From assembly GCA_014654705.1 (NCBI GenBank), contig JACVZY010000093.1, forward strand, positions 124,001-188,000: a stretch of 64,000 bases of DNA. Direction: 5' to 3'. This document shows, in pieces, positions 344-4,261 of the stretch; positions within the stretch are counted from its first letter, which is position 1, and each line of letters begins with the position of its first letter. Position numbers and translations under genes: made by a program. The DNA is from Ignavibacteria bacterium. GTDB taxonomy: Bacteria; Bacteroidota; Ignavibacteria; Kapaibacteriales; UBA4661. The notes below the pieces were generated by a model. It did no database searches and had not been told where the DNA came from. It was given only the letters and a program-made list of their open reading frames with translations.

Positions 344-964
344 TTATACCGTCCCGTGATACCTATCGCCGGCATCGCCCAAGCCCGGTACAATAAAGCC
401 GTGCTCGTTCAGACCACGGTCAAGGGTGGAAGTAAGAATTTGCACATTCGGAAAAGCAGTTTCTATACGCTTCACGCCTTCCGGCGCAGCAATCACCGAC
501 ACAATCACCATACGCTTTGCACCACGCTCCTGAAGCCGCTCCAGCGTAGAACACATACTGCCGCCTGTTGCCAGCATAGGGTCTAGCACGAACACAAGTG
601 ATTCAGGTGTCAGCGCTGGGATATTGCAGTAGTATTCGTGAATGGCAAGTGTCTCTTCATTCCGGCTCAACCCGATGTAGCCAATACGCGCTTCCGGCAT
701 TAGATCAATAAATGCCTGCACCAACGAAGCGCCCGCCCGCAAGACCGGTAGCAAAATCACATCATGCCCGATTGCATAACCTTCCGTCTCTTCAAGCGGT
801 GTCTGCACGCGCAAAGTACGCATACCGAGAAACTTCGCTGATTCTACCGCAAGTGCCGTTCCGATGCGCTGCATAGCTGCACGGAAACGATCGGGAGGAG
901 TGGCTTTATCACGCAAAAACGTGATGTCGCGCCGGACAAGAGGATTATCAAGGACTGTGAGCAT
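344..964 (-). CDS. upp: Uracil phosphoribosyltransferase
   Basis: UPRTase converts uracil and PRPP to UMP and diphosphate in cytoplasmic pyrimidine salvage. The 206-residue length fits the family. Visible signatures are the PRPP-binding loop VLDPMLATGGS near residues 127-137 and the uracil-binding C-terminal segment GFIVPGLGDAGDRYHGT. LLPVLRAGASLV in the first half is also characteristic. The ATG at 964 starts the conserved N-terminus. The gene lies 66 bp after the TatD/barrel gene on the same strand and could be co-transcribed with it; it ends in a strong hairpin terminator. No part appears damaged. Confidence 0.95.
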   Translation of the reverse strand: MLTVLDNPLVRRDITFLRDKATPPDRFRAAMQRIGTALAVESAKFLGMRTLRVQTPLEETEGYAIGHDVILLPVLRAGASLVQAFIDLMPEARIGYIGLSRNEETLAIHEYYCNIPALTPESLVFVLDPMLATGGSMCSTLERLQERGAKRMVIVSVIAAPEGVKRIETAFPNVQILTSTLDRGLNEHGFIVPGLGDAGDRYHGTV

Positions 965-1030: not shown

Positions 1031-2455
1031 CTATTTTCCCGAAAAATTAGGGTACCATTGCAAAGTAACACGAGGAATAGAAAAAACAAATCCGTACAGT
1101 GTCCGCAAATCCGTTGGACCATAACGCTTACTTTCATTGAGCCCCAGAACAACATTAGCACGGTATTCCACGCCCGGGTAGAATATACCGATTGGTGTTT
1201 TCAAGTTCAAACTTATACCAATGATATTCATATGGAATCCCCAGTAGCTTTGCAAGGAATCGCGATTAAAATTGTTCGTCAAATATGAAGCACCAAGCAT
1301 AAAATGAAAATTGAGGATATTCGACGGATTCACTACATATTGGAGCGAGAGGTCAAATGCTTGATGGTCATTCGGGCGAAGTTGGCGTGGCATACCGGTG
1401 CGGGGATCAATTCTTGTCGGGGTAATATTGGTGCCTTGCCAATAGGATGCGTTAATCGCAAAGTGGTCGCTCAAGAAAAAAGAGAGGCTCGCTCCGGGAC
1501 CAACAGAAGAGCCATCGTCAGCAGTATTACCGCCACTATTAAAGTCCGTCAACGTATTTAATCCGAACAAGCCACCGATACCAATAACTTTCTTATATGG
1601 ATTCGGTGGTTCAACATATTTTTCATCATCGTCTTCATCGGCGGTGCTTTGAGCAAATGTTACCAAAGGCGCAGCAATGAGCGTTAGAACCAAAATACTC
1701 AACGCAAAAAAGCGCTTGGCGTTATCAGTTGTGCGCGAAAGAACATCTTCCACAGTCATTGAACGAATTTCGGCGACTTTTTCGGCGACAAGGCGCACAA
1801 ATGCTGGTTCATTGCGCTTGCCGCGATGCGGCACGGGCGACATATATGGCGCATCGGTTTCAATCATCAATTTGTCCATCGGCACAGTAGCTACGGTTTC
1901 GGAAAGAGTGGATTTTTTGAAGGTAATATTTCCCGTGAAGGAAATGTGAAAGCCTAGTCGAACAGCTCGTTCTGCCTGCTCCGGCGTACCGGAGAAACAA
2001 TGCAACACGCCTCGCAGTGAGCCATCTTGTTCATCGTCCAGAATGTTCATAAGGTCATCGTCGGACTCACGATTATGCACAATCACCGGCAAATTCCGCC
2101 GCTTGGCAATCTGCAACTGCTTGCGGAATACCGTCTGCTGCACATCGCGTGGGGCAAAGTCGTAATGATAATCCAAACCAATTTCGCCGACAGCGCGGAC
2201 TTTTGCTCCATAGCTCAGTTCTTCCACCCGAGCAAGCGCTTCATCGCTTGCTTTGAGAGCATCATGCGGATGTATGCCCATACCGCAGAATATCCGCTCA
2301 TCCGACTCGGTAAGCGCCAAGACCGCATCAAACCGTGAAGGCTCAATGGCAGGAATCACTAAATGCGTCATTCCATCCGCAAACGCCCGCGCTGCTGCTT
2401 CGGAGCGGTCTTCATCAAATTGCTTGTGGTCGAGATGACAATGCGTGTCAATCAT
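1031..2455 (-). CDS. TatD-family DNase fused to an outer-membrane beta-barrel
   Basis: Residues 1-251 are a complete TatD metal-dependent hydrolase: DTHCHLD (H5, H7), GEIGLDYHYDF (E91), VIVHNRE (H127), LHCFSG (H152) and ETDAPY (D201) supply the metal ligands. TatD normally ends at about NAKRFFGL-stop. Here the frame runs on at exactly that point into a hydrophobic stretch, residues 251-269, ending FAQS like a signal-peptide cleavage site. Some 200 further residues follow, with alternating hydrophobic and aromatic strands like a small outer-membrane barrel. An in-frame ATG at 1759 (M233) would give the barrel a 37-residue signal peptide with a basic n-region, so the barrel may be translated separately from inside tatD. 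A one-base error or frameshift at the six-base A run 1706-1711 is another possibility. TatD identity is firm; the fusion is what the sequence shows but needs confirmation. Confidence 0.8.
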   Translation of the reverse strand: MIDTHCHLDHKQFDEDRSEAAARAFADGMTHLVIPAIEPSRFDAVLALTESDERIFCGMGIHPHDALKASDEALARVEELSYGAKVRAVGEIGLDYHYDFAPRDVQQTVFRKQLQIAKRRNLPVIVHNRESDDDLMNILDDEQDGSLRGVLHCFSGTPEQAERAVRLGFHISFTGNITFKKSTLSETVATVPMDKLMIETDAPYMSPVPHRGKRNEPAFVRLVAEKVAEIRSMTVEDVLSRTTDNAKRFFALSILVLTLIAAPLVTFAQSTADEDDDEKYVEPPNPYKKVIGIGGLFGLNTLTDFNSGGNTADDGSSVGPGASLSFFLSDHFAINASYWQGTNITPTRIDPRTGMPRQLRPNDHQAFDLSLQYVVNPSNILNFHFMLGASYLTNNFNRDSLQSYWGFHMNIIGISLNLKTPIGIFYPGVEYRANVVLGLNESKRYGPTDLRTLYGFVFSIPRVTLQWYPNFSGK

Positions 2456-2560: not shown

Positions 2561-4261
2561 TCATCGGATATTTGCGTTTTTTGTTGGGGGAAGTTTTGAC
2601 GCTTCCGTTGGCTTCATTACTTGTTTTTTTGTTGGCAACAGATTTGGGTTTGATTGTTTGGCGACTGCGGGCTTGGGCTTCTGTAAGCCACCTCGTTCCA
2701 GCACTGGTCTATCATTCATCCACGCAAAACCCTTTAGTCGTAAGGTTTGAATCTGCTTGCGGGTTATATGCTCAGGAATATATTCACCTTCGACTTTGCC
2801 ACGCCAGACGATTGTTTCGATTTCACCTTTGGCAAAAAGAACTTTGATTGTGTCGGCGGCATTGCGCACAGCGCCGTCGGGCTGCTTTGTGCCGTCATCA
2901 TTGTCGGATGAGCCAAAATATAGATTAAACGCTTTTCCTTCCGCCACGACCGAGCGCATTGTATCGCGCCGTATGGAGATAATGATATTTTCTCCGGAAA
3001 GTTGGTCTATGCGGTCTTGGTGCGCAGTATCGTTTTTGCTCGCGGCAAAAGCGTTACCGTAAGCATCTATGCGCTCCAAACGTTTTTCTTCCAGGAGCAC
3101 TATCAGCGAATCGGAACGCAACTGTGTGGAATCAAGCCAAAGGCGCGGACGCTCTTTACTGCTCGAAATACCGACTGGTAATGCCTTTGCTGTGTCTGTA
3201 GTCGTGGCTGTTGCCCCCGTTGCTTCAAGAGTAGAGCTAGGCAGCAACCGAATACGATTAAACGTTTTTTCGTACACACCGAGGTCAGCGCGTCCTGCGA
3301 GTTGACGGCGTGTCATCTGCACGTTACCCGTGGCAAGATAGACTTCGTTGGAATCAGAACGAAATGCTTCTAACAAATTACCAGTTATGCAGAGCGTATC
3401 CAAACGTTTTTCGGGCAATTCGACCGTAGCGCTTGTCGCTGCTTGCTTTTTGGCGGATGATTTGGAAGCATTTTTTTTCTGAGAAGACTGCTGAGAGGAC
3501 TGTTGAAACGCTCGGTCGGACTTATCGGCATCAACCGTGTCTATCTGGCTTACCATCGGCTGCGCATTATTGCGATAGCTGGTAATACGGGAATAACGCC
3601 TGCTCGGAATATTCACCAGCGAATCCCCTTGCAAGTAAGCGCTTGAAACTTTGCTCACCGCCACTGCCTTGCCGGAGGCATAGCTATTCTGCGTTGCGCG
3701 GTGGTATTCAAGTGTATCACATGAAATAATGAGCGAATCGTTTTCAATATTCACCGTGCGGTAAAATCGCGCTATTTTTGTTGCGGCAGAATATGTGCCT
3801 TCGCGGGCAGTTAGGGTGCTATTGCGGTCAAGAAGCATTACGCCGCCGGAGCCGGAGATTTGCCGCAAAAAACCGTCGTACGTGCCTTGCGCGGCTTTCA
3901 TCGTGACTGTACCTTGCTTCATAACGACGTTTCCAAACATATCGGCGCGGTTTTGCTCAATGTAATGCACGGCACGATTGCACGTAATCGTTACTGCGCC
4001 TTGCGTCAGCACCACATTCCCGATAAGTTCTCGCACAAAGCCGTTTGGCGTAGCATTGCCGATAAGTTTTTCGGCTTGGAGAAAGAGTGGTTGATTGGGT
4101 TGCACATCATCTGCTTCTTGCGCAAAAACACTTTCGCTTTGCCAGAGCAGCATTATTACGATGGAGAGCAGACCAAGTGCTGCCTGCCAATATTTTCGAT
4201 GTATATTTGTGCTGCTATTTTGCTTCAAAATCATTTGTACCTTTATATGCTTTATGCGCAT
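2561..4261 (-). CDS. OstA/LptA-like periplasmic protein
   Basis: After a membrane or signal segment (about residues 28-47, ending SVFAQ) come repeated short beta segments of the LptA/OstA type, such as LIGNVVLTQGAVTITCNRAV and MFGNVVMKQGTVTMKAAQG. This is the fold that carries lipopolysaccharide through the periplasm or forms the N-terminal domain of LptD. Further OstA-like repeats recur around residues 290-480 (CITGNLLEAF, YLATGNVQMTRRQLAGRADL). A Ser/Gln/Lys-rich linker lies near 245-275. At 566 residues it is longer than LptA and lacks an evident C-terminal LptD barrel; the tail is Pro/Lys-rich. The ATG at 4261 overlaps the divergent glycosyltransferase start by 8 bp; an ATG at 4234 would give a neater signal peptide and no overlap. 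Confidence 0.75.
   Translation of the reverse strand: MRIKHIKVQMILKQNSSTNIHRKYWQAALGLLSIVIMLLWQSESVFAQEADDVQPNQPLFLQAEKLIGNATPNGFVRELIGNVVLTQGAVTITCNRAVHYIEQNRADMFGNVVMKQGTVTMKAAQGTYDGFLRQISGSGGVMLLDRNSTLTAREGTYSAATKIARFYRTVNIENDSLIISCDTLEYHRATQNSYASGKAVAVSKVSSAYLQGDSLVNIPSRRYSRITSYRNNAQPMVSQIDTVDADKSDRAFQQSSQQSSQKKNASKSSAKKQAATSATVELPEKRLDTLCITGNLLEAFRSDSNEVYLATGNVQMTRRQLAGRADLGVYEKTFNRIRLLPSSTLEATGATATTTDTAKALPVGISSSKERPRLWLDSTQLRSDSLIVLLEEKRLERIDAYGNAFAASKNDTAHQDRIDQLSGENIIISIRRDTMRSVVAEGKAFNLYFGSSDNDDGTKQPDGAVRNAADTIKVLFAKGEIETIVWRGKVEGEYIPEHITRKQIQTLRLKGFAWMNDRPVLERGGLQKPKPAVAKQSNPNLLPTKKQVMKPTEASKLPPTKNANIR

Follow-up and report, generated by a model that had tools for sequence, protein, structure and literature searches.

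Overlapping genes of bacteria normally lie out of frame, so that their products stay separate. The bacterial cytochrome b/c1 protein FbcH (Bradyrhizobium) is a polyprotein with an internal signal peptide, and the gene described here, in which a TatD hydrolase runs in frame into an outer-membrane beta-barrel, can be likened to it. The gene also resembles HCV core-E1, where the signal peptide of the second protein likewise forms the end of the first; signal peptidase separates the HCV core protein from the next protein and leaves it membrane-anchored (PMC5402940). Two reports on SpaO/SctQ/HrcQ of type III secretion (PMC13059759, PMC8553256) describe a further parallel, one frame in which an internal start gives a C-terminal product beside the full-length one, both products belonging to one machine in one compartment.

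The TatD-barrel gene differs from all of these. Unlike in SpaO/SctQ/HrcQ, its short product would be an unrelated, exported outer-membrane protein, and its long one starts with a soluble enzyme. Unlike in HCV core-E1 and FbcH, most members also have an internal start with a Shine-Dalgarno (SD) sequence, and a polyprotein need not be the main source of the barrel. In-frame internal starts and internal signal peptides are known; what sets this gene apart is the pairing of TatD with a barrel, its order-wide persistence and a ribosome binding site (RBS) that moves together with the start. In the literature searched, no TatD-barrel fusion had been described before. Throughout the order Kapabacteriales, and in related families too, a cytoplasmic enzyme and an outer-membrane protein have stayed joined by an in-frame overlap, and in most lineages one gene appears to yield two proteins for different compartments.

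Layout of the fused gene

The window analysed here is a stretch of 64,000 nucleotides from an Ignavibacteria bacterium (contig JACVZY010000093.1, positions 124,001 to 188,000). Its minus strand carries, from 2455 to 1031, one continuous frame of 474 codons (474 amino acids) running from ATG to TAG. The initial annotation had these coordinates right and left the strand unstated. Its reading of the locus as an in-frame TatD-barrel fusion with an internal signal peptide proved real: the TatD part matches PF01026, and relatives keep the frame at 38-94% identity. An SD-like AGAGGA (2460-2465) lies upstream of the tatD start on the same strand, and the frame encodes, in this order, a complete TatD hydrolase, a predicted Sec signal peptide without a linker and a predicted eight-stranded OmpA/NspA-like barrel.

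The tatD coding part (residues 1-250; 1706-2455, minus strand), recognised by PF01026, TIGR00010 and Foldseek, ends in the usual family C-terminus TTDNAKRFF without a stop codon. Two Phe codons in the last TatD helix form a T6 run (1706-1711, minus strand), which had been proposed as a slippery site; this six-base run and the in-frame ATG at 1759 are both present as first described. The junction reads FF-ALSILVLTLIAAPLVTFA with Q after the predicted cut, so that a hydrophobic segment directly follows TatD and about 200 residues of barrel come next. The ATG (1757-1759, minus strand) lies inside tatD at column -18, counted from the LF/FF end of TatD, and is the candidate start of a barrel precursor. 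If it is used, the signal peptide would be MTVEDVLSRTTDNAKRFFALSILVLTLIAAPLVTFA (1652-1759, minus strand), with an h-region (residues 251-266) that begins right at the TatD end and a predicted cut TFA/Q at 268/269. The putative mature outer-membrane beta-barrel (1034-1651, minus strand; about 206 amino acids) consists of an acidic linker and eight strands, as predicted from AF2, Foldseek and a sub-threshold PF13505 match.

The TatD half

PF01026 (TatD_DNase) covers residues 2-250 with an E-value of 1.7e-85 and 286.9 bits against a cut-off of 27, and the NCBIfam model TIGR00010 scores 275.4, above its cut-off of 206. Foldseek found TatD structures, among them S. aureus TatD (6l25, 43% identity). 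The fused TatD is the sole TatD in the window's genome. Its metal-ligand positions are H5, H7, E91, H127, H152 and D201 (HxH, E, H, H, D). When 129 fused genes were aligned together with G008, a genome that carries the two halves apart, E91, H127, H152 and D201 were found in 130/130 rows and H5 and H7 in 128/130, the remaining two being gapped there. Since the ligands are intact in all members covering them, the TatD half is, as judged by its sequence, under selection as an enzyme, nuclease activity itself being predicted. It shares fold, metal ligands and C-terminal helix with the stand-alone TatD/TIGR00010 DNases (S. aureus 6l25, E. coli YcfH and TatD); unlike them, it has no stop at the usual end, and its C-terminus runs into the signal peptide.

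The barrel half and its signal peptide

AF2 models of moderate confidence (mean pLDDT 71 for the whole fusion and 65 for the barrel modelled by itself) show a TatD fold and an eight-stranded barrel. The best structural matches of the barrel in Foldseek were of the OmpA/NspA/OmpW/OprG types, including 1bxw, 1p4t and 2f1t, with E-values of 1e-5 to 1e-7. The PF13505 gathering score of 28.7 was not reached, the barrels scoring 18-26 bits where they matched at all. The barrel is predicted to be an eight-stranded, up-down, OmpA-like outer-membrane fold. It shares the predicted eight strands with the OmpA/NspA/OmpW-type barrels and differs from them in its low identity (about 10-16%), its scores under the Pfam cut-offs and its lack of an OmpA-like periplasmic domain.

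A signal-peptidase-I-like site, called by pattern search rather than by a dedicated predictor, was found in 129/129 fused genes, and in 122/129 it has the form [AS]Q. It lies a median of 16 residues past the TatD end across these 129 members. The hydrophobic core of the fused proteins begins within a few residues of the usual TatD end (NAKRLF/xL), with few short inserts; two species of the window's genus carry one of these, RIPTRISGGN, between the TatD end and the core. The last TatD residues hold a mean of 1.9 Lys/Arg in fused proteins versus 1.1 in unfused ones, which is expected if those residues double as the n-region of the signal peptide. Most members are strongly acidic after the signal-peptidase site, with a mean excess of 4 D/E over K/R per 20 residues.

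Distribution and phylogeny

All of the 61 nearest genomes match the fused gene. Matches were found in 120 of the 123 Kapabacteriales genomes searched. In nearly all of these, TatD and barrel share a single open frame; G008 does not show it, nor do fragments cut off by contig ends or a few genomes whose only match is a distant TatD paralogue. Stops that the search tables seemed to place inside some frames were dismissed, the loci themselves being open from TatD through the barrel. Two families of the same class outside Kapabacteriales, f13 and f19, carry the fusion as well. Eleven loci of f19 have about 80 K/E/R-rich residues, probably a coiled coil, between signal peptide and barrel.

The other TatDs of the class and phylum, where examined, either stand alone or carry a fused radical SAM-like domain. 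Frames of 450-470 amino acids in sister families, considered as further barrel fusions, were rejected and are TatD-radical SAM fusions, an arrangement seen at twelve loci. The radical SAM-like partner, identified by eye from a CxxxCxxC-like motif only, is attached at the same C-terminal point of TatD as the barrel. It differs from the barrel in being soluble and having no signal peptide. The TatD end thus appears to be a recurrent fusion point.

In a TatD tree built without the junction columns, the 76 fused proteins of the first set and G008 form one group (support 90), so that one gain and one loss are needed. In G008, which belongs to the window's own family and is 70% complete, tatD and barrel are two separate genes. 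Its tatD terminates in HFFDVK-stop and is still followed by upp, like that of many fused relatives; its barrel, on a different contig, has an ATG and a signal peptide of its own and is flanked by glycosyltransferase-like genes. Because its TatD groups within the fused clade and tatD has kept upp as its next gene, the split reads as a natural separation of the two halves by one later fission. G008 was the one genome to show the two separate genes and clear stop that the initial annotation had envisaged for relatives.

The internal start

An ATG is present in columns -20 to -2, the last 20 or so TatD codons, in 119/129 fused genes versus 8/45 unfused ones. For the first set alone the figures are 67/76 and 8/45 (Fisher p 5e-15), a comparison in which genomes inside one family are not independent. 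Seven of the 10 fused genes that lack an ATG there have GTG or TTG only, and three members have no ATG, GTG or TTG in these columns. In those three there is no usable internal start, and the route through a full-length precursor must therefore be able to suffice in some members. The column of the ATG varies by family: -18 in f1 and f2, -10 in f3, f8, f9 and f10, -12 in f19 and part of f13, -11 in f4, -4 in f5 and -13 in f7.

The RBS signature follows the start. An SD of at least 4 nt together with an ATG was found at the junction in 46% of the first 76 genes versus 20% in synonymous shuffles (z 7.2). A further 54 genomes, 53 of them usable, had played no part in forming the SD idea; in these the value was 94% versus 27% expected (z 11.5), and 0/1000 shuffles reached it. 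These genomes belong to f2, f3 and f9, families present in the first set, so that the data are independent and the families are not. No excess of SD plus ATG was seen in control windows elsewhere in tatD or in the unfused TatDs.

At each of the two main ATG columns, -18 (22 genes) and -10 (48 genes), the aligned SD has the same spacing, 8 nt. Where the ATG is at -10, codon -14 is mostly GAG, AAG, CAG or AGG before G, and AGG is retained while residue -14 varies between E, K, Q and R; Glu at -14 is encoded by GAG in 39/42 cases versus 24% in the same domains. One f3 genus has its ATG at -18, and GAGG has shifted along with it (TCAGAGGTTAAGAATATG). In families other than the window's, the start region shows less structure than its synonymous shuffles (z +0.66, se 0.08; control ATGs -0.13). 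By family, the SD signal is strong in f2, f3, f8, f9, f10 and a genus sister to that of the window, and absent in the window's own genus, in f5, f7 and f13, and in most of f19 and f6. ATG compensation did not reach significance, the number of phylogenetically independent pairs being too small.

An internal barrel start inside tatD is thus strongly supported for the clade at the sequence level. Of the two explanations first offered for the locus, this one is favoured for the clade, with ATG and SD shifting together; for ATG 1759 itself its support is weak, as neither an SD nor an accessibility signal was found there. Nucleotides here are better conserved than the residues they encode, and an RBS evolving inside a conserved enzyme makes a clean comparative case of internal initiation.

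Two probable products of one gene

We consider it probable that this is an order-wide in-frame fusion whose two genes keep separate jobs, with the barrel made mainly from the nested start in most lineages. The last helix of TatD would double as the positively charged n-region of the barrel's Sec signal peptide. In most lineages the barrel would start 10-18 codons ahead of the tatD end, from an SD written into tatD codons. Sec would export its precursor, signal peptidase I would cut it, and the barrel would insert into the outer membrane. Ribosomes initiated at tatD would also produce a full-length TatD-barrel precursor, which must be made because tatD has no stop. In this precursor the internal signal peptide would insert N-in, with TatD cytoplasmic and the barrel outside; signal peptidase would then free the barrel, and TatD would keep a membrane tail at its C-terminus. 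The separate tatD and barrel of G008 support the view of two separable halves. The overlap looks self-locking, because a TatD stop would cost the barrel signal peptide its n-region and, in most cases, its start. The gene also poses a question of cell biology, the fate of a TatD with a signal peptide at its end. Gene callers are expected to report a single TatD protein and so to hide the barrel, and other nested exported proteins of this sort may be overlooked elsewhere.

A bolder proposal is that the fused precursor is itself functional. Its signal peptide would tether TatD to the Sec-engaged membrane at its inner face and obligately couple the nuclease to outer-membrane protein biogenesis, and the window's genus, which lacks the internal RBS, would have a true signal-peptidase-processed polyprotein of a cytoplasmic enzyme and an outer-membrane protein. 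We regard this as doubtful.

Distinctly unlikely is that the full-length protein is the sole product, its internal signal peptide being recognised once TatD has folded and cut after FA/Q by signal peptidase I, with the barrel going to the outer membrane, TatD tethered to the inner membrane and the internal ATGs incidental. The universal signal-peptidase site, the internal signal peptide in a single frame, the three members without a usable start in the junction and the window's genus, with its ATG 1759 but no SD or accessibility signal, are all consistent with such a polyprotein, whose logic is known from viral ones such as HCV core-E1 (PMC5402940). It would, however, leave unexplained why most families conserve an ATG that shifts position together with its SD.

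That TatD acts while joined to the barrel, as a single functional chimaera (for example with TatD carried to the periplasm), would fit the retention of the fusion over the whole order and the intact metal ligands. We find this very improbable, as there is no export signal ahead of TatD, a signal-peptidase site parts the halves in every member, and G008 holds them as separate genes.

TatD could end separately through programmed frameshifting or through transcriptional slippage close to the LF codons, and the second explanation of the initial annotation, error or slippage at the six-base run, relied on a shift of this kind. Reading one base fewer does give KRFLR-stop in the window, correctly on paper, and in about half of the members a stop in the +1 frame occurs within 5 codons. 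That rate (0.488) is near the synonymous-shuffle expectation (0.436, sd 0.037), and the same in-frame junction is present in the 129 analysed genes with TTTTTT in just 16 of them. Given the shuffle control and the lack of a conserved slippery site we reject this reading and give it hardly any credence. That a sequencing or assembly error joined two ordinary genes, as the homopolymer at the junction and the origin of the window genome as a short-read MAG (PMC7714850) might suggest, is refuted by relatives down to about 40% identity, single-contig genomes included, which have the identical in-frame junction, and is almost certainly wrong.

The window's own genus

ATG 1759 (column -18) is kept in 7/8 genomes of the window's genus; one genome has lost it and has no other ATG, GTG or TTG in the junction. 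No SD precedes ATG 1759 in this genus, none at the alternative starts there was convincing, and no accessibility signal was detected at the internal start in the window's own family. SD use in the window genome, estimated from 36 long window ORFs only, was 19% at their first ATGs versus 8% at internal ATGs. This genome seems not to rely strongly on SD, so the missing SD at ATG 1759 does not settle the matter. In the sister genus a perfect AGGAGG lies 8 nt ahead of an ATG at -10.

For the window's genus, the barrel may come from weaker initiation at ATG 1759 or from processing of the precursor; as the SD is missing there, a full-length precursor cut by signal peptidase is possible. For the window genome we lean somewhat towards internal initiation and place the remainder on precursor processing.

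Gene neighbourhood

An OstA/LptA-like protein is encoded upstream of the fused gene (window 2561-4261, minus strand), an adjacency recognised only in family f1. Downstream lies upp, for uracil phosphoribosyltransferase (window 344-964, minus strand), and the order tatD-upp is kept in many families.
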